Source: Sedimenticola thiotaurini
GTDB taxonomy: Bacteria; Pseudomonadota; Gammaproteobacteria; Chromatiales; Chromatiaceae
Assembly: GCF_001007875.1 (NCBI RefSeq)
Contig: NZ_CP011412.1
Coordinates: 3,472,001 to 3,536,000 of the forward strand
Length of the DNA stretch: 64,000 bases
Reading direction: 5' to 3'
Shown: positions 39,722 through 55,475 of the stretch, piece by piece
How positions within the stretch are numbered: position 1 is the first letter of the stretch
How the letters are laid out: each line of letters begins with the position of its first letter
The notes under the pieces: model-generated
What the model was told of the DNA's origin: nothing
Database searches by the model: none
Seen by the model: the letters and a program-made list of their open reading frames with translations, nothing else
Made by a program: the position numbers and the translations under genes

Positions 39722-40399
39722 ATGTCTACCGTAGGAGCGGCGTTTCGGGCCTCGGTGCCGGTGTTGTTTGGCTATGTCCCGCTGGGCATGGCCTTCGGCA
39801 TTCTGTTTCAGGATCTTGGCTACGCCTGGTACTACGCACCCCTGATGGGGCTGACGGTCTATGCCGGTGCCGCCCAGTTCATGGCGGTGGGGCTGCTGGC
39901 CGCCCACGCCTCACTGTTCGAAGTGGCGCTCTCCACCTTTATTCTCAACTCCCGACACATGTTCTTCGGTGTGTCGCTGTTGAGCCGCTACCGGGCTCAG
40001 GGGCTGAAGAAACTCTACCTGATCTTCGGGTTGACCGATGAGACCTACTCCCTGATTACCAGTACCCACCCGCCGACCGGACACGATGAACAGAACTACT
40101 ACCTGGCGCTGACCGCCTTGAACCAGAGCTACTGGATTACCGGCTGTGCCCTGGGCGCCCTGTTCGGAGCCAATGTGCAGTTTGATACCAGCGGCATGGA
40201 CTTTACCCTGACCGCCCTGTTCATGGTGCTGATGCTGGAGCAGTGGAAAAAACTGCGTGAACCCTATCCCTTTGTGGTCGCACTGCTGTGCGGCCTGGCC
40301 GCGTTGTGGCTGTTCAGAGAGCAGATGCTGCTGGTGTCGATCAGCCTCTCCATCGCTCTGCTGTTGCTGCGTTCCCGGATCAGTCAGGTGGTGTTATGA
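39722..40399 (+). CDS. azlC: AzlC-type branched-chain amino-acid exporter, large subunit
   Basis: A 225-residue protein with about six membrane helices. FGYVPLGMAFGILFQDLGY at the N-terminus and FILNSRHMFFGVSLLSRY near residue 78 are conserved AzlC features. With AzlD it exports branched-chain amino acids (and their analogues) across the inner membrane. The stop overlaps the next start by 4 bp (ATGA), as usual for azlCD. Located 43 bp after purL. Confidence 0.9.
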   Translation: MSTVGAAFRASVPVLFGYVPLGMAFGILFQDLGYAWYYAPLMGLTVYAGAAQFMAVGLLAAHASLFEVALSTFILNSRHMFFGVSLLSRYRAQGLKKLYLIFGLTDETYSLITSTHPPTGHDEQNYYLALTALNQSYWITGCALGALFGANVQFDTSGMDFTLTALFMVLMLEQWKKLREPYPFVVALLCGLAALWLFREQMLLVSISLSIALLLLRSRISQVVL

Positions 40400-40728
40400 G
40401 CGAAACCGGTTACCTGCTGCTGGTCTTCCTGGTGATGACCATCGCCACATTTCTCACCCGTCTGATACCGTTCGTGGCGTTTCGGGACCGGGGTGACCAC
40501 CCCCTGCTGACCTATTTGGGTCGCTATATGCCGCCAGCCATCATGACCCTGCTGGTGCTGTACAGCCTGAAATCACTGGACCTGACCCAGGCTCCCTATG
40601 GCATGAATGAACTGTTGGCCCTGTTGTTGACCACGCTGCTGCACCTGTGGCGGGGTAATGCGCTGCTCAGTATTTTTGCCGGGACACTGTTCTACATGGC
40701 AGCGCTTCAGTCGGGCTGGTTTGTTTAG
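40396..40728 (+). CDS. azlD: AzlD-type branched-chain amino-acid exporter, small subunit
   Basis: A 110-residue membrane protein with three to four helices; TFLTRLIPFVAFRD near residue 20 and YMPPAIMTLLVLYSL near 45 are conserved in AzlD. It is the obligate partner of AzlC. The ATG at 40396 overlaps the azlC stop; a longer in-frame reading extends into azlC and is not the start. Confidence 0.9.
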   Translation: MSETGYLLLVFLVMTIATFLTRLIPFVAFRDRGDHPLLTYLGRYMPPAIMTLLVLYSLKSLDLTQAPYGMNELLALLLTTLLHLWRGNALLSIFAGTLFYMAALQSGWFV

Positions 40729-40849
40729 GGGGGCGGATGGAACAATTGAGCCCCGTCCCGCTGGAGCCCGAAACAGCATGTCGCCGGCATCACCCGGGAG
40801 CGATGCCCCTGTTTAATCCCCGGATCTGATCATGCCCCGATCAGGCGAG

Positions 40850-41287
40850 TCAGCTCTCGACCCGCACCGCCAGCACATCACAGCCGGCCAGGTGCAGCAC
40901 TCCATTGGCGGTTGAGCCGAGCAGCAGTTGCAGGCCGTGTCGGCCATGGCTGCCCAGCACGATCAGATCGGCCTCCTGCTCTTCGGCTACCCGGACAATC
41001 TCCCGCTTGGGAGTGCCGATCTCCACCTGATAGCCGGCGTTGGCCAGCTTCTGTTCGTCGATCATCTCCTGCAGTTTGGTCTCGGCCTGTTTAGCCAGGC
41101 GCTGATCCAGATCCAGATCCTCCGGCAGGGGAATCTCTCCGGTATACATGGCGCCGGTGTACTCCACGACGTGGATCAGGGTCAGCCGGGCGTTGTACAG
41201 TTTCTGCAGCTCTACAGCCTTGGCAAGGACCGAGTTAAACTCTTTGGAAAAATCTACCGCAACCAGGATATGTTGATAATTGGACAT
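40850..41287 (-). CDS. Universal stress protein (UspA family)
   Basis: A 145-residue single Usp domain: HILVAVDFSKEFNSVLAKA at the N-terminus and the nucleotide motif in LIVLGSHGRHGLQLLLGSTANGVLHLAG (G-x2-G-x9-G-S/T pattern) at the C-terminus, which suggests an ATP-binding subtype. It resembles E. coli UspA in length and start (MSNYQHILVAVD). Its role is survival under stress. It faces away from the sensor kinase gene, 186 bp to the right. Confidence 0.9.
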   Translation of the reverse strand: MSNYQHILVAVDFSKEFNSVLAKAVELQKLYNARLTLIHVVEYTGAMYTGEIPLPEDLDLDQRLAKQAETKLQEMIDEQKLANAGYQVEIGTPKREIVRVAEEQEADLIVLGSHGRHGLQLLLGSTANGVLHLAGCDVLAVRVES

Positions 41288-41472
41288 GGGTTCGCCTCCG
41301 ACAGCTTTAACTGCCGGTCATTATGATCTTCGGCGGTTATTTTTGCCATATGCGCAGTCACCGTTCAGTGATTCAGGCATGGCATCAGGGCGCCCGGACG
41401 ATTCGGCAGACGGGCTTGCCTGGGTTGGGAATATTCCGTAGTCTCGGCGTAATTCCCCTGAAGGATGGTTAT

Positions 41473-43617
41473 ATGTGGCATCGGGCGCTGCTGATATTTC
41501 TGTTGCTGCCGCTGATTTGCGGGCCGGTCCAGGCCGAGGATCGACTGATCCGTATCGGGGTGCTAAGCCATCGTGGCAGCCTGGCGACCTATGAGACCTG
41601 GTCACCGACTGCCACCTATCTTGGTCGGGTGATCCAGGGGCATGACTTCGAGGTGGTACCGCTCGACTTTTCCGAAGTGGATCCGGCGGTCAAGTTCGGG
41701 CAGGTGGATTTCATCCTGGCCAATCCCGGTATCTACGTGAACCTGGAGGTGCGTTACCGTATCTCCCGCATCGCTACTCTGAATAATCTGGTGGGCCAGA
41801 ACACCAATAATGTGTTTGGCGGGGTGATCTTTACCCGTCGGGATCGACGGGACATCAACACCCTGGAAGATATCAAGGGGAAGAGCTTGATGGCAGTGGC
41901 GGCCTCTTCGCTGGGTGGCTTCCAGATGTCCTGGCGGGAGATGCATGCCCGGGGTCTGGATCCTTATCGGGACAGCTCATCGTTCTCTTTCGGCGGTATC
42001 CACGACGAGGTGGTGCGTGCCGTGCGGGATGGTCGGGTGGAAGTGGGCATGATTCGCACCGATATCCTGGAGCGTATGGCCGCCGCCGGCCAGATCAAGC
42101 TGGCGGATTTCAAAATCATCAATCCGAAGGTTAACCCCGGATTTCTGCTCAGCCGCAGCACCCGACTCTATCCGGAGTGGCCGTTCAGTAAGGTGTTGCA
42201 CACCTCCAATGAGCTGGCCCAGCAAGTGGCCATAGCGCTACTCAACATGCCGAAGAACCACCCGGCCGCCCAGGCCGGCAACTATGCCGGCTGGACCATT
42301 CCGCTGGACTACCAGTCCGTGCATGACCTGTTCAAGGAACTGCACCTGCCGCCCTATGAATACATGGGTCGGTTTACCCTGGCCGACGCCATGAAAAAGT
42401 ACTGGTACTGGATTCTGGTGGCCCTGGTGTTCCTGGTGTTCATGCTGTTGATGACCACCTGGGTGGCCCGTCTCAACCGGGAGTTGAAAAAGGCCAAGCT
42501 GCATCTTGAGCGCCAGTACGAACTCATTCTCAACTCGGTGGCGGACGGTATTATCGGCGTCGATCTGGACGGTAACACCACCTTTGCCAACCGGGCCATG
42601 ACCCAGATAACCGGCTGGTCGGTGGCGGACCTGATCGGTCGGAATCAGCATGAGATTCTGCACCACACCCGTGCCGATGGTACTCCCCACCCGGCGGAGC
42701 AGTGTCCGGTCTATGCCACCTGTCATGACCAGATTCCCCGCTTTGTCGAAGACGATATTTTCTGGCGCAAGGATGGCAGCAGTTTTCCGGTGGAGTATTC
42801 CAGTACACCGATCCGGGATGAACAGTCGAAAACGGTTGGCAGCGTGGTGGTGTTTCGGGATATCAGTGACCGCAAAAGGATCAGTGAAGAGGCGCGTCAG
42901 CACCAGGATGACCTGGCGCATGTGGCCCGCCTGAGTACGATGGGTGAGATGGCCTCCGGTATCGCCCATGAGATTAACCAGCCCCTGACCGCAATTACCG
43001 CCAATGCCCAGGCCTGTATCCGTATGTTGGAGAGCCACAGTGGTGAGACCGAGCGTATAATCGACGTGATGGAGCGCATCGGCTCCCAGGCGTCCCGGGC
43101 GGGTGAGATCATCCGTCACCTGCGCCAGTTTGTTAAGAAAGAGCAGCCGGAACTGAGCTGTATCGATATCAACGAGGTGATCAAGGAGGTGATCACCCTG
43201 CTGCGGACCGAGATTAACAGGTTTGATGTGAGTGTCAGGCTGGAGCTGGACGGACGGATTGGTGAGGTGATGGCGCTGCATGTGCAGATTGACCAGGTGA
43301 TCATGAACCTGGCCCGCAATGCCATTGAGGCGATGGCCGATAATCAGGACAGAGAGCGGCTATTGCATATTGCCACCAGCAGTGAGGCGGATAATTATGT
43401 CCGGGTCACCGTGACTGATACCGGGCCGGGACTCAATCCGACAGTGGCTGATGAGCTGTTCAATCCCTTCGTGACCACCAAGCCGAACGGGATGGGGCTT
43501 GGCCTCTCCATCAGTCAGGGTATTATCGAGGCCCATAAGGGGCGGATATTTGTCGAACCGGCCGAAGGTGGCGGGGCACGCTTTGTTTTTCTGTTACCCA
43601 CATCCCGTGAACAATGA
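41473..43617 (+). CDS. TtrS/ThsS-like sensor histidine kinase
   Basis: A 714-residue sensor. A signal/anchor segment (1-21) leads into a periplasmic PhnD-like binding domain (about 22-300; IRIGVLSHRGSLATYETWSP). One membrane helix follows (about 310-330, YWYWILVALVFLVFMLL), then PAS (about 345-465) and a HisKA/HATPase core with the phospho-histidine in GIAHEINQPLTAI (about H499), N box VIMNLARNAIEAM and G boxes DTGPGL and MGLGLSIS. The layout is that of TtrS (tetrathionate) and ThsS (thiosulfate) sensors. I chose ATG 41473, with AAGGA upstream. Its regulator follows at 9 bp and sox genes come next, so a thiosulfate or tetrathionate signal is likely (inference). Confidence 0.88.
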   Translation: MWHRALLIFLLLPLICGPVQAEDRLIRIGVLSHRGSLATYETWSPTATYLGRVIQGHDFEVVPLDFSEVDPAVKFGQVDFILANPGIYVNLEVRYRISRIATLNNLVGQNTNNVFGGVIFTRRDRRDINTLEDIKGKSLMAVAASSLGGFQMSWREMHARGLDPYRDSSSFSFGGIHDEVVRAVRDGRVEVGMIRTDILERMAAAGQIKLADFKIINPKVNPGFLLSRSTRLYPEWPFSKVLHTSNELAQQVAIALLNMPKNHPAAQAGNYAGWTIPLDYQSVHDLFKELHLPPYEYMGRFTLADAMKKYWYWILVALVFLVFMLLMTTWVARLNRELKKAKLHLERQYELILNSVADGIIGVDLDGNTTFANRAMTQITGWSVADLIGRNQHEILHHTRADGTPHPAEQCPVYATCHDQIPRFVEDDIFWRKDGSSFPVEYSSTPIRDEQSKTVGSVVVFRDISDRKRISEEARQHQDDLAHVARLSTMGEMASGIAHEINQPLTAITANAQACIRMLESHSGETERIIDVMERIGSQASRAGEIIRHLRQFVKKEQPELSCIDINEVIKEVITLLRTEINRFDVSVRLELDGRIGEVMALHVQIDQVIMNLARNAIEAMADNQDRERLLHIATSSEADNYVRVTVTDTGPGLNPTVADELFNPFVTTKPNGMGLGLSISQGIIEAHKGRIFVEPAEGGGARFVFLLPTSREQ

Positions 43618-43626
43618 GATTCGAGT

Positions 43627-44235
43627 ATGAGTGAGAGTACGGTTTTTATTATTGATGATGACCGGGAAGTGCGGGAGGCGCTTCAGTTGTTAATGGAGTC
43701 GGTGGGACTCCAGGTGGAGCTGTTCGATTCGGCCAACGCCTTTCTGGAGCAGTTCGATGAAACCCGTCCCGGCTGCATTATCCTGGATGTGCGCATGCCG
43801 GGCATGAGTGGTCTGGAGTTACAGAGCCAACTGCTGGAACTGCCGCTCTGTCCGCCCATTATCATTTTTACCGGGCATGGTGATGTACCGATGGCGGTGC
43901 GGGCAGTACAGGCTGGTGCGGTGGATTTTATCGAGAAGCCGTTCAATGATCAGGCGCTGCTGGACAGCGTGCACCGGGCCCTGGAGCTGGATGCGCGTCA
44001 ACGGGGGCAGGCATCCCATATTGCTGAAATCAAACAGAAAGTGGACCGTCTGACCCCCCGGGAGCGGGAGGTGCTTCACCTGGTGGTGCAGGGCATGCGC
44101 AACAAGTTGATCGCTACCGAGCTGTCGGTCAGCCAGTCCACGGTAGAGGCCCACCGGGCCAAAGTGATGGAGAAGATGGAGGCGAAGAGTCTTTCCGATC
44201 TGATGCGTATGATGCTGACACTGGAGTCCCAGTAA
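43627..44235 (+). CDS. FixJ/TtrR-type response regulator
   Basis: A 202-residue regulator. The receiver domain has the phospho-acceptor in CIILDVRMPGMSG (about D54), acidic pocket DDD near residue 10 and the lysine in FIEKPF. The output is a LuxR-type HTH (LTPREREVLHLVVQGMRNK, about 140-200). The combination is that of FixJ, TtrR and ThsR. It follows its sensor by 9 bp and precedes soxX by 326 bp, so it probably activates sox transcription, perhaps through the 57-bp inverted repeat there (inference). Confidence 0.9.
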   Translation: MSESTVFIIDDDREVREALQLLMESVGLQVELFDSANAFLEQFDETRPGCIILDVRMPGMSGLELQSQLLELPLCPPIIIFTGHGDVPMAVRAVQAGAVDFIEKPFNDQALLDSVHRALELDARQRGQASHIAEIKQKVDRLTPREREVLHLVVQGMRNKLIATELSVSQSTVEAHRAKVMEKMEAKSLSDLMRMMLTLESQ

Positions 44236-44564
44236 TCAACATGTCCGGTGCCGTATAGGGGGGTTGTGGCGCGTGTTGTTGACTGCTCTCCCATGCCCGG
44301 GTTAAGGAAAACCCCAATAGGTGCTGCTGTATGTTCCAATTTTTATATTTCCCGCCCCTTTCCATAATCAGGGACGTCTGAGTATTCGCACTGATTCAGG
44401 GCAACGGCCACCCCGCTGCCCCGATCCGAAGCAAAGCAAAAATAACGCGGATTGACGACAAAATTGACCCCTTGTCCAGTAAACGAACGTGCAGGGATGC
44501 ACCACAGGCTTACGTTCGGTTATTGGACAGGTGGTCACCCTTCAGCATTCCTTAGGAGGAGATG
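44236..44564. other. Leader and promoter region of the sox cluster
   Basis: A 329-bp spacer between the response-regulator gene and soxX. It contains the 57-bp inverted repeat listed separately. A TTGACG at 44452-44457 could be a -35 box but no good -10 stands 16-18 bp after it, consistent with an activator-dependent promoter. No gene seen. Confidence 0.5.
44473..44529. promoter_or_regulatory. 57-bp inverted repeat in front of soxX
   Basis: TGTCCAGTAAACGAACGT (44473-44490) and ACGTTCGGTTATTGGACA (44512-44529) are complementary at 16 of 18 positions, with a 21-bp centre. The right arm ends 35 bp before the soxX start. It may be a two-half-site operator for the adjacent regulator, or a leader hairpin. 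The spacing between arm centres, 39 bp, is close to four helical turns. Confidence 0.65.
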
Positions 44565-44957
44565 ATGATAAAAAAGTCCAGGCTGGTGTCCATGCTAGCC
44601 ATCGTAACGACGGTGACCCTGGCGGGCTGCAACAGTCCCGCTGTAAAAGATGCACCCGAAACCAACACCTCTCAGGCTGATCCGGCGATTGTCGCCGAAG
44701 GCAGATCAATCGCCATGAGCCGCACCAAGGGCAACTGTCTTGCCTGCCACCTGATTGAAGACGGCGAGTCTCCCGGAAATATCGGACCACCACTGTTGGC
44801 CATGAAGGCACGTTATCCGGACAAGGCGAAGCTGCGGGCCCAGATCTGGGACCCCACTTCGGTTAACGCCGAGTCAGCGATGGTGCCCTTCGGTCGTATG
44901 CGTGTCCTGACAGAGGACGAGATCGACAAAGTTGTCGAGTATATCTGGACCCTGTAA
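44565..44957 (+). CDS. soxX: SoxX, cytochrome c subunit of SoxXA
   Basis: A 130-residue monohaem c-type cytochrome. The signal ends in LAGC near residue 22, so it may be a lipoprotein. The haem site is CLACH (about residues 58-62), and MVPFGRM near 107 offers the methionine ligand. SoxXA starts thiosulfate oxidation by attaching it oxidatively to the SoxY cysteine. Two adjacent ATGs are possible (44562, 44565); AGGAGG at 44554-44559 is better spaced for the second. First gene of soxXAKLYZB; 44 bp before soxA. Confidence 0.93.
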   Translation: MIKKSRLVSMLAIVTTVTLAGCNSPAVKDAPETNTSQADPAIVAEGRSIAMSRTKGNCLACHLIEDGESPGNIGPPLLAMKARYPDKAKLRAQIWDPTSVNAESAMVPFGRMRVLTEDEIDKVVEYIWTL

Positions 44958-45001
44958 TCGACAGGCGAACGCAACTGCTCACAGTTACCGGAAGAGAGAT
45001 T

Positions 45002-45829
45002 ATGAAGAATATATTGATCAGTTTGGTGGTACTGCTATTGACCTCCACGGTGGTGCAGGCGGGCCCCGAAGAGGACCGCATGGCCTTTATTAAATATTAC
45101 AAGGCCAAATTCCCTTCTGTGCCGATGGAAGAGTACCCCAATGGTGCCTATGCCATTGACCCCATCGGACGCGAAAACTGGGAAGCCATTGAAGAGTTCC
45201 CGCCCTACGAACCGTTTATCGATGCCGGCCAGGAAATGTGGGAGAAACCTTTTGCCAACGGCAAGACCTACAAGGACTGTTTCCCGGACGGGCCGGCAAT
45301 TGCCCACAAGTATCCCCACTGGGACAGGGAAAAGGGGATGGTGATGACCCTGCCGCTGGCCCTGAACGAGTGTCTCAAGGCCAATGGCGAAAAGCCGCTT
45401 AAATACAAGAAGGGGCCCATCAACAACATCCTCTCCTATATCGCCTACCAGTCCCGCGGCAAGGTGATCAACGTCGAGGTGCCAAAGGACGATCCCCGCG
45501 CGCTGGAAGCCTTCGAGAAGGGCAAGAAGTTCTACTTCACCCGGCGTGGACAGCTCAACTTCTCCTGTGCCACCTGTCATGTACAGAACACCGGTCTGAA
45601 GGTTCGTACCGAGATACTGAGTCCTTCGGTGGGCCATGTTACCCACTGGCCGGTATACCGCTCCAAGTGGGGGACAGTGGGTACCCTGCATCGTCGCTTC
45701 TCTGGATGTAACAACAACATCCGGGCCAAGGCACTCACTGCCCAGGGCGAAGAGTACCGTAACCTGGAGTATTTCCTCAGCTACCTGAGCAACGGCTTGG
45801 AACTGAATGGCCCCGGTGCGCGCAAGTAA
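45002..45829 (+). CDS. soxA: SoxA, haem subunit of SoxXA
   Basis: A 275-residue exported cytochrome with a signal peptide (1-20, ending VVQAGPEE). Only one CxxCH is visible, SCATCHVQN (about residue 188), so this is the monohaem type; a cysteine (DCFPDG, about 94) remains near where diheme SoxA has its first site. The active-site cysteine is in RRFSGCNNNIRA (about 238), which becomes a persulfide haem ligand in studied SoxA. With SoxX it conjugates thiosulfate to SoxY. 44 bp after soxX and 49 bp before soxK. Confidence 0.93.
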   Translation: MKNILISLVVLLLTSTVVQAGPEEDRMAFIKYYKAKFPSVPMEEYPNGAYAIDPIGRENWEAIEEFPPYEPFIDAGQEMWEKPFANGKTYKDCFPDGPAIAHKYPHWDREKGMVMTLPLALNECLKANGEKPLKYKKGPINNILSYIAYQSRGKVINVEVPKDDPRALEAFEKGKKFYFTRRGQLNFSCATCHVQNTGLKVRTEILSPSVGHVTHWPVYRSKWGTVGTLHRRFSGCNNNIRAKALTAQGEEYRNLEYFLSYLSNGLELNGPGARK

Positions 45830-45878
45830 GCGCTCGCGGTTATTTACAACCAGGTATCAAGAGACACTGGAGAAGAAC

Positions 45879-46211
45879 ATGAAGAGCAAAATCGTAATCC
45901 TGATGTTGATGCTGATATTCGGCCTGGCGGCCGGCAGTACGACACTATTGGCGAGCGACATGCAGGCCAACGCGGCAGCCGCTGAGGATGCCATCGCCAA
46001 GGCGGAGGCGGCGCGCAAGAAGGCGGCATCGGTCAATGGTGAATGGCGGGACACCGGCAAATTCATCAAGCAGGCCAAAGCAGCAGCCGAGGCGGGTGAT
46101 TACAGCAAGGCGATCAAGCTGGCTAACAAGGCTGAAGTAGAGGGTCAGCTTGGCTATGAGCAGCAGGTCTCGCAAAGCGAACTCAAAATACCCTCCTATC
46201 TGAAGTACTGA
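45879..46211 (+). CDS. soxK: SoxK, SoxXA-binding protein
   Basis: A 110-residue exported small protein. Signal peptide about 1-25 (VILMLMLIFGLAAGSTTLLA), mature part helical and Ala/Lys-rich (AEDAIAKAEAARKKAASV, then KFIKQAKAAAEAGDYSKAIKLA), with an end LGYEQQ. This matches the SoxXA-binding protein (SoxK/SAXB), which stabilises SoxXA in Chromatiaceae and Thiomicrospira. The longer upstream frame overlaps soxA and is not the start. Confidence 0.88.
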   Translation: MKSKIVILMLMLIFGLAAGSTTLLASDMQANAAAAEDAIAKAEAARKKAASVNGEWRDTGKFIKQAKAAAEAGDYSKAIKLANKAEVEGQLGYEQQVSQSELKIPSYLKY

Positions 46212-46235
46212 TTCGGATAAAACCGAAGGAGAGAA

Positions 46236-46910
46236 ATGATGAAATATGGCAAGGTACTGATTACCCTGGCCCTGATAGGGAGTGTGGCCCTGTCCGGATT
46301 GGCATTGGCCGCTCCCAAGGCGAAGATAACGCCGGGAATGGAATCACTGGATGTCGTGCATAATGGCAAGACCGTGACCATTCGCCGCATCGACGACCGG
46401 GAAGCCCGCATCCCGGAAGCCTATAACCACCCCTCCCGTCACTGCCCGCCGTTCTGTATCCAGCCGATGCAGATTATTCCCGGCGTGGATACCGTGGGTG
46501 AGCTGGAAGTGCTGGGTTATCTGAAACGGATCAGCAACGGCGACCGTTCCGTCATGCTGGTGGATTCCCGGACCCCAGACTGGACCAATCGCGGCACCAT
46601 CCCGGGCTCAGTCAATATTCCCTGGGACAAGATCAATATTGATGTGGCTGGGAACTTCGAGATCGAAGCGGAAGCCGAGACCCTGCAGGATATTCTGGTC
46701 AACAGCTTCGGTGTGCAGCTGAATGATGGCAAGTGGGATTTCCGCAAGGCCAAGACACTGGTGCTGTTCTGCAACGGCATCTGGTGCCCGCAATCATCAG
46801 TCAATATTAAAACCCTGATCAAGATGGGTTACCCCGCCTACAAACTGAAATGGTATCGCGGTGGTATGCAGGATTGGGTCAGCGTCGGCCTGACCACGGT
46901 CAAACCCTGA
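46236..46910 (+). CDS. soxL: SoxL, periplasmic rhodanese-like protein
   Basis: A 224-residue exported sulfurtransferase-like protein. Signal peptide about 1-27 (LIGSVALSGLALAAPKA). The rhodanese domain spans about 80-220, with VMLVDSRTPDWTNRGTIPGSVNIPW and the active-site cysteine in VLFCNGIWCPQSS (about C182). In Allochromatium a rhodanese gene (rhd/soxL) also follows soxBXAK and is thought to handle SoxY-bound sulfane sulfur. Two start ATGs (46236, 46239); AAGGAG precedes both. 28 bp before soxY. Confidence 0.87.
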   Translation: MMKYGKVLITLALIGSVALSGLALAAPKAKITPGMESLDVVHNGKTVTIRRIDDREARIPEAYNHPSRHCPPFCIQPMQIIPGVDTVGELEVLGYLKRISNGDRSVMLVDSRTPDWTNRGTIPGSVNIPWDKINIDVAGNFEIEAEAETLQDILVNSFGVQLNDGKWDFRKAKTLVLFCNGIWCPQSSVNIKTLIKMGYPAYKLKWYRGGMQDWVSVGLTTVKP

Positions 46911-46938
46911 ACAGAAGCAGAAATAACAGGAAATAGCT

Positions 46939-47409
46939 ATGAATGAATTACGTAGATTGATCATCAAGGGTTCAGTGGCCGCAGGCACACTGGGTGTCGC
47001 TATGGGCGCCGGACTGTTAATGCCCACCCAGGCGCTGGCCGCCTGGCCGAAACAGGCATTTGGCGAGAAGAAGATGGATCAGGCCCTGACAGCGTTACTT
47101 GGCTCCAGTGATACGACCGAGAGCGCCGATATCAAGATCAAGGCGCCGGAGATTGCGGAAAACGGCGCTGTGGTGCCGGTCACCGTCACCGCCGATATGG
47201 CGGGTGTGGAGTCGATCACCATTGCTGCACCCAACAATCCATCGCCGTTGGTGGCCAGTTTTGACCTGGCCGATGGCGCCCACGGATACGCCTCCACCCG
47301 AATCAAAATGGGTAAGAGCGGCGATGTTGTGGCGATAGTCAAGGCCAATGGCAAGCTCTATACCGGGAAAAAGAATGTCAAAGTGACGATCGGCGGTTGT
47401 GGCGGATAA
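46939..47409 (+). CDS. soxY: SoxY, sulfur-carrier subunit
   Basis: A 156-residue protein with a Tat-type signal (RRLIIKGSVAAGTLGVAMG, residues 4-22) and the diagnostic C-terminus GGCGG, whose cysteine carries the sulfur substrate on a swinging arm. The core is an immunoglobulin-like beta fold. It forms a heterodimer with SoxZ in the periplasm and passes intermediates between SoxXA and SoxB. Next gene is soxZ, 59 bp away. Confidence 0.95.
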   Translation: MNELRRLIIKGSVAAGTLGVAMGAGLLMPTQALAAWPKQAFGEKKMDQALTALLGSSDTTESADIKIKAPEIAENGAVVPVTVTADMAGVESITIAAPNNPSPLVASFDLADGAHGYASTRIKMGKSGDVVAIVKANGKLYTGKKNVKVTIGGCGG

Positions 47410-47468
47410 ACCTAACCGGACAGGCATCGGAACATAACAACAGACAACATATTTTTGAGGTATAGAAC

Positions 47469-47774
47469 ATGGCAACAATCAAGATTCGCGCGAAAGAGAA
47501 GGGCGGGGTAACCACCGTCAAGGCATTGATGACCCACTCCATGGAGTCGGGTTTGCGCAAGGATAAGAATGGTGAAAAGATACCGGCACACTTTATCCAG
47601 GAGGTGGTGTGCGAAGTGAATGGTAAAATGGTGATGAATGCCCACTGGAGTGGCGGCGTCTCCAAGAACCCCTACATCTCCTTCAAGTTTGACGGTGGCA
47701 AGGGCGAAACGCTGAAACTCACCTGGACAGATAACCAGGGTAAGAGCGACAGCGCTGAAGCGGCGATCAGCTAG
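47469..47774 (+). CDS. soxZ: SoxZ, SoxY partner
   Basis: A 101-residue beta-sandwich protein without its own signal peptide; it is exported with SoxY through the Tat route. TIKIRAKEKGGVTTVKALMTH at the start and FIQEVVCEVNGKMVMNAHW in the middle are typical. A ribosome site GAGGTATAG is upstream. Downstream, a GC-rich hairpin separates it from soxB. Confidence 0.95.
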   Translation: MATIKIRAKEKGGVTTVKALMTHSMESGLRKDKNGEKIPAHFIQEVVCEVNGKMVMNAHWSGGVSKNPYISFKFDGGKGETLKLTWTDNQGKSDSAEAAIS

Positions 47775-47796
47775 TCCTGGATCAGGGACGGAAAAA

Positions 47797-47833
47797 GACA
47801 GGGGCGAAGTCGGCAGCGGCTTCGCCCTCTGTC
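47797..47833 (+). other. Hairpin between soxZ and soxB
   Basis: GACAGGGGCGAAG and CTTCGCCCTCTGTC can pair with one bulge around a 10-base loop. It is not followed by a T-run. It may stabilise the soxXAKLYZ transcript end or attenuate reading into soxB, giving less SoxB than SoxYZ. Confidence 0.5.
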
Positions 47834-47919
47834 TTCCAATCGCCATTGATGGCGTTTAACAACAGTAGACAGGTCAGGTTGCAGGTTTGACCGGCACCTG
47901 GCCAAAGGTTGATCTGATT

Positions 47920-49695
47920 ATGAGCTTATCAAGAAGAGAGTTCCTTCATCTGATGGGAATGGCGAGCGCGGCAGGTCTGTTGCCGGGTTCGCTGCGAGCG
48001 GCCAGGCAGCGGCCTGAAGATATTTACGAGATTCCCCGTTTTGGTAACGTCTGCCTGATGCACATGACGGATTGTCATGCCCAGTTGAATCCCATCTATT
48101 TCCGGGAACCCAATGTGAATCTCGGCATTGGTGATGCGCTGGGCAGAGCGCCCCACCTGGTGGGAAGCGCCCTGTTGAAGCAGTTTGGCATTGAACCCGG
48201 CAGCCGGGCCGCCCATGCCTTCAGTTACCTGGATTATGACAACGCCGCCCGCACCTACGGCAAAGTGGGCGGCTTTGCCCACCTGGCCACCCTGGTTAAG
48301 CGCATGCGGGCACAGCGTGGTCAGCGTAATAGCCTGTTACTGGATGGCGGGGACACCTGGCAGGGGTCCGGTACCGCCTACTGGACCCGTGGCAAAGACA
48401 TGGTGGAGGCTTGTAACCGGCTCGGGGTGGACATCATGACCGGCCACTGGGAGTTTACCTACCAGGATAGCGAAGTCATTGAAAACATTGCTGCATTCAA
48501 GGGTGAGTTCGTCGCACAGAATGTCAACGTGACCGAGGAGGCGTTGTTTGACTATCGGTTTACCGACTTCGAAGATTTTGATGAAGATGCCGGACTTGCC
48601 TTCAAGCCCTATACCATGCGCACCCTGAACGGCGTAAGGGTGGCGGTGATTGGTCAGGCGTTCCCCTACACTCCCATTGCCAACCCGAGTCGTTTTATTC
48701 CTGACTGGACCTTCGGTATCCAGGAGGAGCGGATGCAGGCGCTGGTGGATCAGGTGCGGGCCAATGAGAAGCCGGAACTGGTGGTGGTGCTGTCCCACAA
48801 CGGTATGGACGTGGATCTGAAAATGGCCGCCCAGGTTACCGGTATCGATGTGATTTTTGGTGGTCACACCCATGACGGCATGCCGTCCCCGTCAGTGGTC
48901 AAGAATGCATCCGGCCAGACCCTGGTGACCAACGCCGGTTCCAACGGTAAGTTCCTCGGCGTGATGGATCTGGATGTGCGTAACGGAAAACTGCAGGGTT
49001 ACCAGTACCGGCTGGTGCCGATCTTCTCCAACCTGCTGGAGCCAGATCCGGAGATGCAGGAGTACATCGATGAGGTACGGGCGCCCTACCTGGAGAAGTT
49101 GCAGGAGCCGCTGGCGGTTGCCGAAGAGACTCTCTATCGCCGGGGCAATTTCAACGGGACCTTCGATCAGGTGATCTGTGATGCCCTGCTCAAGGTGAAT
49201 GACGCCCAGATCTCCCTCTCCCCCGGCTTCCGCTGGGGCACCACGGTCATACCGGGGCAGACCATCACCATGGAACACGTGATGGATCAGACCTGTATCA
49301 CCTACCCGGAGACTTATCGTCGGGAGATGAGCGGAGCCGATATCAAGGCGATCCTGGAGGATGTCTGCGACAACCTGTTCAACCCCGATCCCTACTTCCA
49401 GCAGGGCGGCGATATGGTGCGCCTGGGGGGGCTGGATTACGTGTGTGATCCCAACCAGTCGTTCGGCAAGCGCATCAGCAGCATGACCCTGGATGACGGT
49501 ACGCCGATTGAGGCGGGCAAGCAGTACATGGTCTCCGGTTGGGCCACGGTGGGCAGTCAGTCCCCTGGCCGACCGATCTGGGATGTGGTGGCGGATTACC
49601 TGCGGGATCAGAAGCAGGTCAAGATCGACAAGCTCAACACGCCGAAACTGGTGGGTATGGAAGGCAATCCGGGGCTGCAGGATTACCCCTACTGA
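47920..49695 (+). CDS. soxB: SoxB, thiosulfohydrolase
   Basis: A 591-residue periplasmic enzyme with a Tat signal (LSRREFLHLMGMASAAGLLPG). The metallophosphoesterase core binds two manganese ions: MHMTDCHAQLNP (about residues 47-58), GDTW (about 144), and VVLSHNGMDVD and FGGHTHDG further on. It hydrolyses the sulfone from SoxY-bound intermediates as sulfate. Start: ATG 47920, where the Tat motif begins; the longer frame adds 11 residues. Last gene of the cluster; no soxCD follows. Confidence 0.95.
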   Translation: MSLSRREFLHLMGMASAAGLLPGSLRAARQRPEDIYEIPRFGNVCLMHMTDCHAQLNPIYFREPNVNLGIGDALGRAPHLVGSALLKQFGIEPGSRAAHAFSYLDYDNAARTYGKVGGFAHLATLVKRMRAQRGQRNSLLLDGGDTWQGSGTAYWTRGKDMVEACNRLGVDIMTGHWEFTYQDSEVIENIAAFKGEFVAQNVNVTEEALFDYRFTDFEDFDEDAGLAFKPYTMRTLNGVRVAVIGQAFPYTPIANPSRFIPDWTFGIQEERMQALVDQVRANEKPELVVVLSHNGMDVDLKMAAQVTGIDVIFGGHTHDGMPSPSVVKNASGQTLVTNAGSNGKFLGVMDLDVRNGKLQGYQYRLVPIFSNLLEPDPEMQEYIDEVRAPYLEKLQEPLAVAEETLYRRGNFNGTFDQVICDALLKVNDAQISLSPGFRWGTTVIPGQTITMEHVMDQTCITYPETYRREMSGADIKAILEDVCDNLFNPDPYFQQGGDMVRLGGLDYVCDPNQSFGKRISSMTLDDGTPIEAGKQYMVSGWATVGSQSPGRPIWDVVADYLRDQKQVKIDKLNTPKLVGMEGNPGLQDYPY

Positions 49696-49729
49696 CACGT
49701 CCGGCAGGGGGTAAGGCACGGATAGCCCG

Positions 49730-49755
49730 GTCAGCCTGGTTCAGTCCAGGCTGAC
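49730..49755 (+). terminator. Hairpin after soxB
   Basis: GTCAGCCTGG and CCAGGCTGAC form a perfect 10-bp stem around a 6-base loop, 34 bp after the soxB stop. There is no T-run after it, so it may be a processing or 3'-stabilising hairpin or a Rho-dependent end rather than a classical terminator. Confidence 0.5.
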
Positions 49756-49876
49756 TGTGGCTGCCTGTCACCCGCCCATTCCCCCCCCCAATATCAGATT
49801 GCCTGCCTGACATGGATTCCGATCACATCATTCAAGTAAGATCAGGTTCTGTTTAGGCAGAGCCAGGTCGATAGGG

Positions 49877-50770
49877 ATGATCTCCAAAGTGGTTTTTAAA
49901 CAACTCGCCATCACACTGCTGCTGGTGCTGCTGATGGCGGCCGTGCAGGAGGGCAGTCTGGACCGTCTCGGTCACCAACAGACCGAGGCCGGCTTCAAAC
50001 GTGCACTGCTGGTGTTTGGGGTCAGTCGCGGCTTGAACGGTGTGATTTCAGTGGCCCAGGGCACCGAGGTGGCGGTAGAGCCGGTCGGCATCGGCCTCAA
50101 CTTCAAACCGGGCGAAATACTGGATCCGATCAATGACCTGGTGGAACGCTTCTCCTGGGTGATGCTGGCCAGCAGTGCCTCGTTCGGTATTCAACGGGTA
50201 CTGCTGGATGTGATGGCCTCCCCCGGGCTGACGCTGTTCGCCTCGCTGGCGGTTCTGCTGCTGATAATGATTTGGTGGCCGGGCCGCTCCCCGCTCAGGG
50301 GGCTGGGCCTGGTCATCTGCCGGCTGGCAGTCGCCCTGCTGATCCTGCGTTTCTCTATCATCCTGATAGCAGTGGGCGGGGAACATTTTTACCAGGCGTT
50401 CCTGGAGCCGCAATACAGCGAATCACGCCAACAACTGGAGCAAGCGGCGAACAGTATTGGTGAGGTGAACAGCGAATTGCAGCCCGATCTGCCCCCTCCG
50501 GAAGAGGAGTCGCTGCTGGATCAGGCTCGACGGGTCTATAACTCAGCCACCCGGGCGGTGGATGTGAATGCTCGTATGGAGGCGTTCAGCCGGGCGGCGG
50601 CCGATATCAGTGAGCATGCCATCAACATGATCGTGGTGTTTCTGATGCAGACGGTACTGTTCCCGCTGTTCTCGCTCTGGCTGCTATGGCAACTGCTGAA
50701 ACGGGTGCTGCGGGCCCGCCTGGATTGGCTGAGGCGCGACCCGCCCGCAAGCGGAGCCGCGCCCGGGTAG
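49877..50770 (+). CDS. Hypothetical inner-membrane protein
   Basis: A 297-residue membrane protein I do not recognise. Hydrophobic segments: about residues 8-24, 90-108 (weak), 113-135, 140-170 and 250-280. Between the last two lies a hydrophilic, probably periplasmic, domain with a Pro/Glu stretch (PDLPPPEEESLLDQAR). The C-terminus is basic (RARLDWLRRDP). It is convergent with folD, 6 bp between them. No link to sox function can be shown beyond position. Confidence 0.65.
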   Translation: MISKVVFKQLAITLLLVLLMAAVQEGSLDRLGHQQTEAGFKRALLVFGVSRGLNGVISVAQGTEVAVEPVGIGLNFKPGEILDPINDLVERFSWVMLASSASFGIQRVLLDVMASPGLTLFASLAVLLLIMIWWPGRSPLRGLGLVICRLAVALLILRFSIILIAVGGEHFYQAFLEPQYSESRQQLEQAANSIGEVNSELQPDLPPPEEESLLDQARRVYNSATRAVDVNARMEAFSRAAADISEHAINMIVVFLMQTVLFPLFSLWLLWQLLKRVLRARLDWLRRDPPASGAAPG

Positions 50771-50776
50771 GCAAGA

Positions 50777-51631
50777 TCAGCTGCCGTGCAGTTCCCGCGC
50801 CTGTAGGGTGTTCTCCAGTAGGGTCGCCACGGTCATCGGGCCAACACCGCCGGGTACCGGGGTGATCCAGGCGGCCCGTTCGGCGGCAGCGGCATAATCC
50901 ACGTCACCGCACAACGTGCCATCGTCCAGGCGGTTGATACCCACATCGATCACCAGGGCGCCCGGCTTAATCCACTCGCCCTTGACGAAATTGGGCCGAC
51001 CCACTGCCGCCACCACGATATCGGCGTTGGCGACCTTCTCCGGCAGATTCTTGGTGCGGCTGTGGCAGACCGTGATGGTGCAGCGTGCCGCTAGCAGCTC
51101 CAGTGCCATGGGACGCCCGACGATATTGGACTGGCCGATAATCACCGCATCCAACCCCTCCAGCTTCTGTCCGGTACGCTCCAGCATGGTCATCACCCCT
51201 TTCGGCGTGCAGGGGCGCAGAACCGGCATGCGCAGCGCAAGGCGGCCCACATTGTAGGGGTGAAAGCCATCCACATCCTTGGTGGGCAGGATCCGCTCGG
51301 TTACCTTATCCTCGTCGATCTGTGCCGGCAGAGGAAGCTGAACAAGAATCCCATCCACGTCCTCGCGTCCGTTCAGCTCGTCAATCTGGGCGATCAGGTC
51401 CGCCTCGGAGGTGTCGGCCGGCAGGCGGCGCAACTCGGACAGAAAGCCCACTTCCTCGCAGGAACGCTGTTTGTTTCTGACGTAGACCTGGGAAGCAGGA
51501 TCCTCGCCTACCAGGATCACCACCAGACCCGGTGGGCGCTTGCCAGCCTCGGTCATGCGGGAAACCTGGGCCTTGATATCGCGACGCAGATCAGCGGCGA
51601 TGGCCTTACCGTCAAGGATATTTGCACTCAT
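50777..51631 (-). CDS. folD: FolD, methylenetetrahydrofolate dehydrogenase/cyclohydrolase
   Basis: A 284-residue bifunctional folate enzyme. [14 protein letters not shown] supplies the catalytic lysine (about K56), and the motifs [11 protein letters not shown] and [14 protein letters not shown] are conserved. The NADP site includes [17 protein letters not shown]. It interconverts methylene-, methenyl- and formyl-tetrahydrofolate. I chose ATG 51631 (MSANILDGK), which matches the family; the longer frame adds 27 unrelated residues. Divergent from the tRNA operon. Confidence 0.95.
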
Positions 51632-51730
51632 GGGTGAGATTCCACTACAGTTTCGAAAGAAGGGCCGCATGATAGCGCGAATGCCCGCATATTTCATCGC
51701 GTAGCTGGCCACCCAGGGTAAATTTTTCGT

Positions 51731-51759
51731 TGACTAGAGGGAGTTGGCTGCGTATCATT
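51731..51759 (+). promoter_or_regulatory. Strong sigma-70 promoter of the tRNA operon
   Basis: TTGACT (51731-51736) and TATCAT (51754-51759) are 17 bp apart, 36 bp before the first tRNA. The predicted transcription start is near 51766. A GC-rich stretch follows the -10, as in stringently controlled stable-RNA promoters. Confidence 0.8.
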
Positions 51760-51795
51760 CCGGCCTCTTCGCACAGAGGCGGGGGTCCGGTTTAT

Positions 51796-51872
51796 CGGGG
51801 TATAGCGCAGTCTGGTAGCGCGCCTGCTTTGGGAGCAGGATGTCGGGAGTTCGAATCTCTCTACCCCGACCA
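51796..51872 (+). tRNA. tRNA-Pro (TGG)
   Basis: A full cloverleaf: acceptor stem CGGGGTA/TACCCCG, anticodon loop with TGG (CTTTGGGA) and TTCGAAT in the T loop. CCA is encoded. First gene of a four-tRNA operon. Confidence 0.95.
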
Positions 51873-51886
51873 AATTTATCGATCAT

Positions 51887-51963
51887 GCGCCCGTAGCTCA
51901 CTCGGATAGAGCATCGGCCTTCTAAGCCGAGGGTAGCAGGTTCGAATCCTGCCGGGCGTGCCA
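51887..51963 (+). tRNA. tRNA-Arg (TCT)
   Basis: Acceptor GCGCCCG/CGGGCGT, anticodon stem TCGGC/GCCGA around CTTCTAA (anticodon TCT), T loop GTTCGAATC, and encoded CCA. It follows tRNA-Pro by 14 bp. Confidence 0.95.
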
Positions 51964-51980
51964 GGTTCTTTACAGTTTAT

Positions 51981-52057
51981 GGTGGGCGTAGCTCAGTTGG
52001 TAGAGTCCCGGATTGTGATTCCGGTTGTCGTGGGTTCGAGCCCCATCGCCCACCCCA
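51981..52057 (+). tRNA. tRNA-His (GTG)
   Basis: Acceptor GTGGGCG/CGCCCAC preceded by the extra G(-1) at 51981 that pairs with C73. The anticodon loop TTGTGAT carries GTG. CCA is encoded. The pre-encoded G(-1) is the identity element for HisRS. Confidence 0.95.
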
Positions 52058-52063
52058 TAAATT

Positions 52064-52139
52064 GGGCCATTAGCTCAGCTGGTAGAGCAGTGGACTCTTA
52101 ATCCATTGGTCGAAGGTTCGAATCCTTCATGGCCCACCA
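52064..52139 (+). tRNA. tRNA-Lys (CTT)
   Basis: Acceptor GGGCCAT/ATGGCCC, anticodon loop CTCTTAA (anticodon CTT), T arm GAAGGTTCGAATCCTTC, and encoded CCA. Last gene of the operon; its 3' end (from TCCTTCATGG on) is part of a 142-bp tandem repeat. Confidence 0.95.
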
Positions 52140-52151
52140 AAAAGCAACGAA

Positions 52152-52178
52152 GCCCGGGTGACAGACCCGGGCTTTTTT
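52152..52178 (+). terminator. Terminator of the tRNA operon (copy 1)
   Basis: GCCCGGGT-gacag-ACCCGGGC followed by six T. An 8-bp GC stem; strong intrinsic terminator 13 bp after tRNA-Lys. Confidence 0.92.
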
Positions 52179-52293
52179 GTTTCCAGTATCTCGATTCGAA
52201 CCTTCGACATCAAACAAGCCAGGTTCGACAGCGCAGCTGCACGAGGCGGCTTGCCACCGAGTCATCCTTCATGGCCCACCAAAAAGCAACGAA

Positions 52294-52320
52294 GCCCGGG
52301 TGACAGACCCGGGCTTTTTT
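52294..52320 (+). terminator. Terminator copy 2 in the tandem repeat
   Basis: Identical hairpin and T-run to copy 1, 142 bp downstream, carried by repeat unit B. Confidence 0.9.
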
Positions 52321-52436
52321 GTTTCCAGTATCTCGATTCGAACCTTCGACATCAAACAAGCCAGGTTCGACAGCGCAGCTGCACGAGGCGGCTTGCCGCC
52401 GAGTCATCCTTCATGGCCCACCAAAAAGCAACGAAG

Positions 52437-52460
52437 CCCGGACCTCGCGTCCGGGTTTTT
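52437..52460 (+). terminator. Terminator copy 3, different stem
   Basis: CCCGGAC-ctcgc-GTCCGGG followed by five T. The stem differs from copies 1 and 2 on both sides in a compensating way, so pairing is conserved although sequence is not. Confidence 0.85.
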
Positions 52461-52755
52461 CGTTTCAGGTACCGCCATTCGAGTGCTTCTTCTGGAAGGT
52501 TGCTTTTGATACAAACCTGCGGTTTATCTTGTGACTGTTCAACCAAATTCTCGGTTGATAAACTGAAAATTACTAAGGAATATACTTCTCTGATCGGGGC
52601 GGGGGTCCAAATTCGAATTTGTGCTCAAGATTAGAACTACAAGAAAACATTAAGTCGTAACATTCAATTATTCTGCGTACTTGCTGCAAAATTCACTTAT
52701 ACGAGCATGGAAGACGCATAATCAACTATTACATGTCAATTAGATAGGAAGTGTT
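52461..52755. other. AT-rich spacer at the left edge of the island
   Basis: Non-coding stretch between the terminators and the VOC gene. The base composition drops sharply after about 52500. No integrase, insertion sequence or small gene with a ribosome site was found. Confidence 0.5.
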
Positions 52756-53139
52756 GTGCAAGTAGAAAGAATTGATCATCTCGTTTTAACGGTAAAAGAT
52801 ATCGATAAAACTGTAAATTTTTATATGTCCGTTATGGGTATGAAAAAAGTAGTTTTTGGGGAAGGGCGCATTGCACTATCCTTTGGAAATCAAAAAATAA
52901 ACTTGCACCAGTTAGGTAAGGAATATGAGCCTAAAGCTGGTAATGTAAAACCTGGTAGTTCTGATTTGTGTTTTATTATTAAGCAGCCAATAAACCAGGT
53001 TATTGCTCACCTGAATGCTTGTAATGTATCAATAATTGATGGGCCAGTTAATCGAACTGGTGCAACTGGTAAAATCGTATCGATCTATTTTAGAGATCCT
53101 GATGGAAATCTTATCGAAGTATCTAACTATGTCATGTAA
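52756..53139 (+). CDS. VOC-family (glyoxalase-fold) protein
   Basis: A 127-residue single vicinal-oxygen-chelate domain: VERIDHLVLTVKDIDKTVNF at the start (metal-site histidine about H7), then KINLHQL and the final glutamate in DPDGNLIEVSNYVM (about E121). Such proteins are small metal-dependent lyases, dioxygenases or resistance proteins; the substrate is unknown. It starts with GTG after AGGAAG. Codon use is visibly AT-rich compared with the rest of the window, indicating transfer. An attC-like palindrome follows. Confidence 0.8.
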   Translation: MQVERIDHLVLTVKDIDKTVNFYMSVMGMKKVVFGEGRIALSFGNQKINLHQLGKEYEPKAGNVKPGSSDLCFIIKQPINQVIAHLNACNVSIIDGPVNRTGATGKIVSIYFRDPDGNLIEVSNYVM

Positions 53140-53214
53140 TAAGCTAAGGCAGCCTCGCCAGTTCGTGTCAGAACACGCTAACGCGTTCCGCTGCTTAAAG
53201 CGTTAGTTGTTCGG
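53140..53214. other. attC-like palindrome between two AT-rich genes
   Basis: A 75-bp imperfect palindrome after the VOC stop. Its outer parts GCTAAGGCAGC and GCTGCTTAAAGC pair with an extra unpaired base; an inner CGTGT-caga-ACACG stem follows. It ends in AAGCGTTAGTTG, close to the integron core site GTTRRRY (one mismatch). The next gene starts 13 bp later, as in gene cassettes. The left core site is poor and no integrase is nearby, so this is only a candidate. Confidence 0.35.
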
Positions 53215-53226
53215 GCGAAATATATT

Positions 53227-53712
53227 ATGCGTATTCTATTCTTTATATTATTTGCAATCGTAATTGTGATTGCGGTTATTGGCCTGTTACTACCTAATCC
53301 AAGAGTGTCGACTAAATCCACGCAACTAGCTGCCCAGATAGATATGGTCTGGGAAAAAGTGACAAATTACAGATCTCAACCGAATTGGCGTAAAGATCTT
53401 GAAAAAGTAGAGGTCAATGAAGCCTTACGGCAGTGGACCGAAATACCTAAAGTTGGACCGAATGTAACGTTAAAAGAAAGAGAAAAACGTACACCCTCGC
53501 TATATACAGTAGAAATAGTCCCAGTAAATGGTTTTAGTGGTTATTCAACGATTGAGCTAGAAGCAAATAGTAAGGGCACGAAATTAACGATTACTGAAAT
53601 ATCCGAGGTTTCAAACCCGTTTAGAAGAGTTCTATCTTTCATCTTTTACAATCAGTCTGAACATATGGATATGTATTTAGAAAACTTGCGGAATGCTTTA
53701 GAACATAACTAA
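53227..53712 (+). CDS. SRPBCC-like small membrane-anchored protein
   Basis: A 161-residue protein: one N-terminal membrane helix (about residues 3-22, ILFFILFAIVIVIAVIGLLL) and then a domain resembling the START/polyketide-cyclase SRPBCC fold (AQIDMVWEKVTNYRSQPNWRKDLEKVEV, then GYSTIELEANSKGTKLTITE). Such domains bind hydrophobic ligands; the ligand is unknown. AT-rich codon use as for the VOC gene. Its start lies 13 bp after the attC-like palindrome. Confidence 0.7.
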   Translation: MRILFFILFAIVIVIAVIGLLLPNPRVSTKSTQLAAQIDMVWEKVTNYRSQPNWRKDLEKVEVNEALRQWTEIPKVGPNVTLKEREKRTPSLYTVEIVPVNGFSGYSTIELEANSKGTKLTITEISEVSNPFRRVLSFIFYNQSEHMDMYLENLRNALEHN

Positions 53713-53738
53713 AAGGGTTATCACGATCAATGGAGTCA

Positions 53739-53879
53739 GAGTCATTGGTCTTGGCGGGTCTGCAGGATCCAATCCGGTTTGAACCCTTCGGTGATGCTGT
53801 CAAAGGAACAGTCAATCCCTGGAGCAGAGCTACTATTTGTAAAATCAATGACTCCCACCCCAATTATTGCCAATGACTC
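53739..53879. repeat. Element with three CAATGACTC motifs
   Basis: GAGTCATTGG (53739-53748) faces CCAATGACTC (53870-53879), and TCAATGACTC (53845-53854) is a third copy. The 141-bp block between convergent genes looks like a small mobile or repetitive element with inverted ends. No protein is encoded convincingly. Confidence 0.4.
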
Positions 53880-53898
53880 GAAATCAAAGCTGACATAA

Positions 53899-53927
53899 AA
53901 AAGCCTCACCGAAGTGAGGCTTTGTAT
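53899..53927 (-). terminator. Terminator of the PEP-CTERM gene
   Basis: Read on the minus strand: GCCTCAC-ttcg-GTGAGGC followed by TTTTTT. A 7-bp stem with a stable TTCG loop, 20 bp after the stop of the PEP-CTERM gene. Confidence 0.88.
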
Positions 53928-53946
53928 TGGCATGTAGGGTATGCCA

Positions 53947-55413: not shown

Positions 55414-55448
55414 TCCGTTCTGTTGTATTGCGTTGTGAGAGAACCTAC

Positions 55449-55475
55449 GCCCACCCTATACCGGTGGGCTTTTTT
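55449..55475 (+). terminator. Terminator after the RnfH-like gene
   Basis: GCCCACC-ctatacc-GGTGGGC followed by six T, 35 bp after the stop. Confidence 0.9.

Follow-up and report, generated by a model that had tools for sequence, protein, structure and literature searches.

A predicted two-component system with a PhnD-type periplasmic sensor for the control of sox genes in Sedimenticola thiotaurini and related sulfur oxidizers

The DNA analysed here is a stretch of 64,000 nucleotides (the window) from the 3.96 Mb genome of Sedimenticola thiotaurini (contig NZ_CP011412.1, positions 3,472,001 to 3,536,000 of the forward strand); positions below are those of the window. It contains, in this order, the genes for a sensor histidine kinase and a FixJ-type response regulator, soxX, soxA, soxK, soxL, soxY, soxZ, soxB and a gene without family matches. 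The sensor gene (41473-43617, + strand), identified as an open reading frame (ORF) with Pfam and NCBIfam matches, encodes a signal-peptide-like start, a periplasmic domain of the PhnD/PtxB type, a hydrophobic stretch, a PAS domain and a kinase; the Pfam matches are Phosphonate-bd (4.3e-37), PAS (1.5e-16), HisKA and HATPase_c, and the kinase core carries the H-box GIAHEINQPL. The longest ORF extends from 41323 to 43617. Judged from the sequence, 41473 fits better as the start, because the signal-peptide-like stretch starts at this position and, in the more distant orthologues, the alignment sets in only at about residue 48-58 of the long ORF. The regulator gene (43627-44235, + strand) encodes a receiver domain (Response_reg) and a GerE helix-turn-helix, which place it among the TtrR/ThsR/FixJ-type (FixJ/NarL) response regulators; its scores lie below the cut-offs of the NCBIfam models for FixJ (NF006900, 242.9 bits, cut-off 255) and TtrR (183.8 bits, cut-off 290). 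It adjoins the sensor gene in 21 of 21 orthologous loci of other genomes and is the likely partner of the sensor. The predicted target operon, soxX-soxA-soxK-soxL-soxY-soxZ-soxB (44562-49695, + strand), was delimited from ORFs, Pfam and NCBIfam. Its first gene starts at 44562, 326 bp past the regulator; soxX, soxA, soxK (SAXB), soxY, soxZ and soxB pass the NCBIfam cut-offs, and the gene between soxK and soxY is a rhodanese (soxL). A preliminary description of this DNA had proposed a sensor with a PhnD-like periplasmic domain, PAS and kinase and a FixJ-type partner directly before soxX, and the domain matches bear out both.

The structural model of the periplasmic domain (predicted local distance difference test score 94.9) matches ArrX with sulfate (Z 27.7) and PtxB with phosphite (Z 27.0), and also HtxB, AioX and PhnD, all binders of small oxyanions. 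Together with the Pfam match, the model assigns the domain to the two-lobed oxyanion-binding fold of the PhnD/PtxB type. The likeness to the binding proteins PtxB, ArrX, AioX and PhnD is one of fold (Z 24-28); their solved chains, unlike the sensor, carry no kinase and are 12-21% identical to the sensor domain. The same genome holds a paralogous sensor-regulator pair, lacking PAS, which adjoins ttrBCA at about 174-181 kb (L058, C1 171000-190000). The reductase genes at this paralogue are 45, 62 and 33% identical to annotated TtrA, TtrB and TtrC of E. coli, and the two sensors of the genome are 43-45% identical in the periplasmic domain.

In 55 genomes, that of S. thiotaurini included, a genome was counted as sensor-positive when its match was near full-length and scored 600 bits or more. 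Such orthologues (45-86% identity) were found in 21 of the 54 other genomes (22 of 55 with its own). Linkage could be assessed in 20 of the 22, two loci lying on contigs shorter than 4.1 kb, and sox genes adjoin the pair in 18 of the 20, the window included. Several gene orders occur among the 18: soxXAKLYZB downstream in 12 (including the window, and one locus whose soxB is truncated by the end of its contig), only soxB downstream in 3, and soxB divergent, sox upstream and soxYZ-A-B downstream in one each. The sensor-regulator pair is thus confirmed as real, beyond chance, by its near full-length orthologues in 21 of 54 genomes and by its synteny with sox. Among the best 80 of 576 loci in a scan of named genomes, PAS and sox occur together in 54, a PAS match without sox in view in 17 (nine of these shorter than 7 kb; PAS match weak in L147 and L151), and no PAS match in 9. 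The record titles of these 80 include Sedimenticola, Thiodiazotropha, symbionts of Lamellibrachia, Solemya and lucinids, Cocleimonas, Thiohalocapsa and Halochromatium.

The sensor also co-occurs with soxB, which is present in 20 of the 22 sensor-positive versus 13 of the 33 sensor-negative genomes (p=1e-4) and, in a class sample of 370 genomes, in 15 of 16 versus 146 of 354 (p=2.5e-5), p-values that overstate independence because the loci are related. The positives without soxB in the first set are G026 and G032, soxB of the latter being cut by the contig end; the sole miss in the class sample, G313, likewise shows a cut soxB. From the hits in the class sample, 60 places whose frames reached about 540 residues or more were retrieved, and the 16 positives were picked by tree and context; four further high scorers have neither the residues His83, Ser196 and His227 described below nor sox neighbours. 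The sensor was found in only 15 of the 161 soxB genomes of this sample, and other sox regulators must therefore exist. Among the part of the neighbouring proteins inspected at the loci L170, L181 and L182, no sulfur target was seen except a rhodanese/metallo-beta-lactamase protein at L170, and six plasmid relatives have no sox genes among their annotated neighbours.

An 18-bp imperfect palindrome, GTTAAGGAAAACCCCAAT (44301-44318, + strand), lies between the regulator gene and soxX and is the predicted operator of the regulator, as indicated by an alignment footprint, a matrix and a scan of the genome itself. It is conserved in the aligned regulator-soxX gaps of 12 genomes (the equivalent at L040 is TAGTGGAAAACCACAATA), and its centre is about 65 bp upstream of the inferred soxX start. 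Between the two are a TTCCAAT element close before the expected -35 (44334-44340, + strand; kept in 10 of 12 upstream regions, not in L048 and L049), possibly a second contact site, and the hexamer CATAAT (44363-44368, + strand; kept in 11 of 12, not in L049), the likely -10 of the soxX promoter. A scanner for consensus promoters reported none at soxX on the + strand, and CATAAT was not among its hits. The matrix was built from 12 sites, that of the window and those of relatives, and 44301-44318 is the best site of the 64 kb (23.3 bits, with the site itself in the training set; next 10.8 bits). The test set of the matrix comprised 47 other loci that have both sox and PAS, L073-L080 being excluded. 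The intervals predicted to hold the site were the gap between the regulator and the next gene and the gap between soxB and the sensor, the latter replaced by the 450 bp preceding the sensor at loci showing no divergent soxB; following a first look with a consensus, they were set in the script ahead of the count. The best site of the whole locus falls inside these intervals in 38 of the 47 loci, versus 3.4 expected by length.

The predicted operator resembles that of ThsR, reported from promoter truncation and mutation in a passage of PMC5408782 as TATGTGGTTTACCACAAT, which scores 14.0 bits with the matrix of sox sites. The best site of an annotated ttr locus on an E. coli plasmid, ATTGTGGTTAACCACATA, also scores 14.0 bits and lies between ttrB and ttrS. 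One locus with Phs-type neighbours (L232) has two copies that are 17/18 identical to the ThsR operator on the other strand; in another (L230) the best sites are weaker and elsewhere. At the level of the motif, the GG-N4-CC inverted repeat before the target genes would place sox in a ThsR/TtrR-type regulon. The ttr locus of S. thiotaurini itself (L058) has a soxX-like motif of 14.6 bits just upstream of its sensor gene, so cross-talk between acceptor-side and donor-side regulation is possible there.

Sites were also found away from the regulator. An exact-pattern scan of six relatives gave 13 distinct sites, 6 of them at sox loci, and a scan of five named symbiont genomes gave 30, with a site at soxB in all five and at soxYZ in three (G836, G837, G838). 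Of the 6 sites at sox loci in the relatives, two (G014, G027) precede a soxYZ that is not on the contig of the regulator, at about 550 bp before soxY in G014 and with a SoxX-like stretch between site and soxYZ in G027; soxYZ genes remote from the regulator are hence preceded by a site in five genomes (G014, G027, G836, G837, G838). Two Thiodiazotropha genomes each have a site before a TlpA/ResA-like and a Thioredoxin_2 protein and a further one before a PstS-like protein, after which a SoxY homologue comes in one of the two.

An assignment of the sensor to TtrS or ThsS finds no support. Against the NCBIfam equivalog model for TtrS (NF040750) it gives a partial match of 303.6 bits, below the cut-off of 750, a strict threshold which none of the 370 class genomes exceeded (one match reached 1e-120). 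A first tree was made from 143 of 175 sensor-domain rows after removal of near-duplicates, the outgroup being three transport proteins of PhnD type encoded in the same genome (two of five tried matched too short and were not used), and a second from 82 rows chosen by hand; both were quick searches with support from the Shimodaira-Hasegawa-like approximate likelihood ratio test (SH-aLRT), without bootstrap. In the first, 66 rows form a single sox clade (SH-aLRT 99), comprising 52 rows with sox in view and 14 without, several of the latter on short contigs. Annotated E. coli TtrS and the paralogue of S. thiotaurini belong to another clade of 12 rows (SH-aLRT 99). In the second tree the sox clade is again single (SH-aLRT 98), and the Phs-linked sensors L230 and L232 fall among the TtrS rows. 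The ttr-linked rows make up one group with five further rows in the first tree and are not one group in the second. L186, with a soxB match of only 23%, was counted as "other". L230 and L232 came from a phylum sample and were taken as ThsS-like by locus and operator; order-level searches around G214 and G162 did not help to locate ThsS. The outgroup is parted from the 140 other rows by a branch of 97, and a sensor of the phosphonate transport type was set aside because these three proteins stand separate from the remaining rows. The proposal of a TtrSR/ThsSR-like system tied to sox is supported in architecture, kind of regulator, tie to sox and ThsR/TtrR-type motif at sox promoters, but an identity of the sensor with TtrS or ThsS is not supported. 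The phylogenetic check suggested with it agrees in that the sensor does not group with phosphonate-type or unrelated kinases, and departs from it in that the sensor also stands apart from the TtrS and ThsS-like rows.

Four sites distinguish the clades. His83, Ser196 and His227 are found in 66 of 66 sox-clade rows and in none of 14 TtrS/ThsS-like rows (12 ttr-linked, 2 Phs-linked); Cys247 is absent from all 66 and present in all 14. These sites were picked after looking, three from 23 differing sites and Cys247 added later, and of 77 further rows 9 have Cys247 and 32 have His227. The residues are likely to be differing binding residues: in a profile alignment to PtxB, Ser196 lies on a Ser of the STSS motif and His227 on the HisAsp motif. 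We take His157 of PhnD and a Glu 20 residues further on to be the matching ligand contacts, a point on which only the title of structure 3s4u (H157A, open, unliganded) bears. As far as the sequences indicate, the ligand is not deducible from TtrS or ThsS, since the sensor belongs to a separate clade and the ttrBCA-linked and Phs-linked sensors share another residue signature with an invariant Cys. A Cys247-bearing sensor outside the sox clade (L243) adjoins soxYZAB in another family, without the motif, and is perhaps an independent link of this sensor family to sox.

Several known systems invite comparison. ThsSR of Shewanella halifaxensis, which responds to thiosulfate and lies beside phs, is described in parts of PMC5408782 with the same plan of PhnD-type sensor kinase and FixJ-type regulator adjoining the target operon, and with an operator core, GTGG-N4-CCAC-AAT upstream of the promoter, that closely resembles the one here; its target is a reductase, whereas here it would be sox. 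No PAS was matched in the ThsS-like rows L230 and L232, which have Cys247 and lack His83, Ser196 and His227, the sox-linked sensor being the opposite in each respect. TtrSR, of tetrathionate respiration, belongs to the same sensor and regulator families, and the TtrSR-type paralogue of S. thiotaurini carries a related motif. TtrS differs in standing outside the sox clade, in having Cys247 in 12 of 12 rows and no matched PAS, and in adjoining ttrBCA instead of soxXAKLYZB; the sox-linked sensor domain is 31% identical to that of annotated E. coli plasmid TtrS. SoxR and sHdrR, according to a portion of PMC12423496, also control sulfur oxidation genes, but are ArsR-type sulfane-sulfur repressors. 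RsrSR and TspSR of Acidithiobacillus caldus are linked to sulfur oxidation in a passage of PMC5093147, RsrSR beside tetH and TspSR described there as sigma-54-dependent, from unpublished work.

It is proposed, with a probability of roughly 0.8, that the two genes encode a two-component system whose dedicated role is control of sox. We infer a mechanism in which the periplasmic Venus-flytrap domain would bind a small sulfur oxyanion, most likely thiosulfate, and close; closure would be passed through the membrane and PAS to the kinase, which would phosphorylate the FixJ-type regulator. The phosphorylated regulator would dimerise on the palindrome ATTA-N-GG-WWWW-CC-N-TAAT, which lies some 65 bp ahead of the start site, and activate the soxXAKLYZB promoter; in relatives it may act on separate soxB and soxYZ promoters as well. 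Activation from about -65 by FixJ-type regulators is known. Thiosulfate is favoured as ligand because the sox genes use it, and is a best guess held at even odds. With the balance equally even, the sensors might form a third, undescribed class of PhnD-fold sulfur-oxyanion sensors, mostly Cys-free, with a His/Ser signature and coupled to PAS. Such a class would be a dedicated master switch of the sox regulon in free-living gammaproteobacterial thiotrophs and in symbionts of tubeworms and clams; the regulon would comprise soxXA, soxB and soxYZ, joined in two Thiodiazotropha genomes by a TlpA-like thioredoxin pair, the operator would be of the TtrR/ThsR type, and thiosulfate would be read as electron donor, not acceptor.

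LuxR and histidine kinase genes next to sox were reported in part of PMC11237559 for Thiohalomonadales, Sedimenticola and Thiodiazotropha symbionts and called known quorum-sensing regulators. The section of that paper on the pair gives no sensor type or operator, and a search of its text for "TtrS" and "response regulator" returned none. A survey described in part of PMC5408782 counted 154 PhnD-type kinases, 13 of them near predicted thiosulfate genes, and sox-linked cases may be among them. In a literature search of titles and abstract beginnings, no ThsSR/TtrSR-type system assigned to sox was found, nor any account of how these sulfur oxidizers, including chemosynthetic animal symbionts, turn sox on; the available portion of the Solemya velum genome paper (PMC4287430) names no sox regulator. 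The preliminary description had called such control of sox not widely described, a claim of novelty that is slightly overstated, as the neighbouring "LuxR and histidine kinase" are in print for lucinid symbionts. With sensor, operator and regulon named, the question of sox switching becomes directly testable. Naming them also connects donor-side with acceptor-side sulfur sensing within a single family of regulators and supplies a biosensor part for sulfur whose residue signature differs.

A number of results weigh against dedicated control of sox. The predicted intervals are missed by 9 of the 47 test loci; in L107 and L128 the best site precedes another sox gene, and in L125 it is found elsewhere, both gaps holding weaker sites. 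The motif is absent from six Chromatiaceae loci (L131, L134, L137, L141, L149, L150; Thiohalocapsa, Halochromatium and a Chromatiaceae metagenome-assembled genome), which keep the pair next to soxB and, in five, also next to soxXAKL; the specificity of the regulator may have shifted in them. The orthologues L051 and L057 are not next to sox, and no soxB was obtained from the genome of L057. Exact-pattern sites stand at neither sox nor ttr in 4 of 6 cases in the genome of S. thiotaurini, and off canonical sox genes in 7 of 13 cases in the six relatives and 22 of 30 in the five symbiont genomes; a palindrome of the operator type even lies in the gap of genes read as queA-tgt in G014, G838, G839 and G840 (L258, L281, L294, L301). 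With so many sites off sox, the queA-tgt gap included, the strict pattern alone is not specific. The kinship of the loci behind the co-occurrence values counts here too. Such findings would suit a pair that is a mere neighbour of sox, with another regulator governing these genes and the palindrome serving autoregulation or something else, and the six loci without motif and the sites away from sox are what this explanation draws on. It is nevertheless unlikely, for the motif tracks sox promoters even at divergent sox genes and at those located in other parts of the genome, and linkage persists through several gene orders.

The residues of the sensor differ from those of ThsS-like sensors, and homology therefore does not imply thiosulfate. 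That the pair controls sox in response to another oxyanion (tetrathionate, sulfite, sulfate or a non-sulfur one) is accordingly a distinct, if lesser, possibility: the sox clade has His83, Ser196 and His227 in place of the Cys247 of the 14 TtrS/ThsS-like rows, and the nearest folds were solved with phosphite, methylphosphonate, hypophosphite, arsenate or sulfate. Yet the linked genes handle thiosulfate and the sensor co-occurs with soxB, and a separate TtrS-type sensor stands next to ttrBCA-like genes in the same genome. A true TtrS or ThsS orthologue re-used at sox and sensing tetrathionate or thiosulfate exactly alike would account for the same order of parts (save PAS), the similar operator and the partial NF040750 match, but is quite improbable given the separate clade in both trees, the opposite state of the four sites, the unreached TtrS cut-off and the presence of TtrSR-TtrBCA in the genome itself. 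The quorum-sensing role assigned in PMC11237559 to the LuxR/kinase pair agrees with the LuxR-type helix-turn-helix and was set aside as extremely improbable: the regulator carries a receiver and matches no autoinducer-binding domain, and the sensor has a binding fold of the oxyanion type.

The soxX leader contains a hairpin (44465-44537, + strand) that ends before the ribosome-binding site and is conserved in 8 same-genus rows (7 distinct). With G-U tolerated, 98.3% of cells are paired and 8 cells are changed on both sides (0 of 500 shuffles); 4 pairs are changed on both sides, a number reached by 30 of 500 shuffles. One possible role is that of an RNA element affecting the translation of soxX or the stability of the mRNA. 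An Rfam scan of 40000-52500 returned tRNAs only. The gene after soxB (49877-50770) has no Pfam or NCBIfam match; a homologue occupies the same place in the 7 same-genus loci holding this stretch, and none was found in the remaining orthologous loci compared. The genes bordering the sensor-to-sox stretch are, by reading alone, presumably usp and folD. Four tRNA genes within 51796-56000 are followed by sequence of 43-46% G+C that contains repeated coding-like fragments, most neighbouring stretches having 57-61%, and the region is possibly an inserted element.

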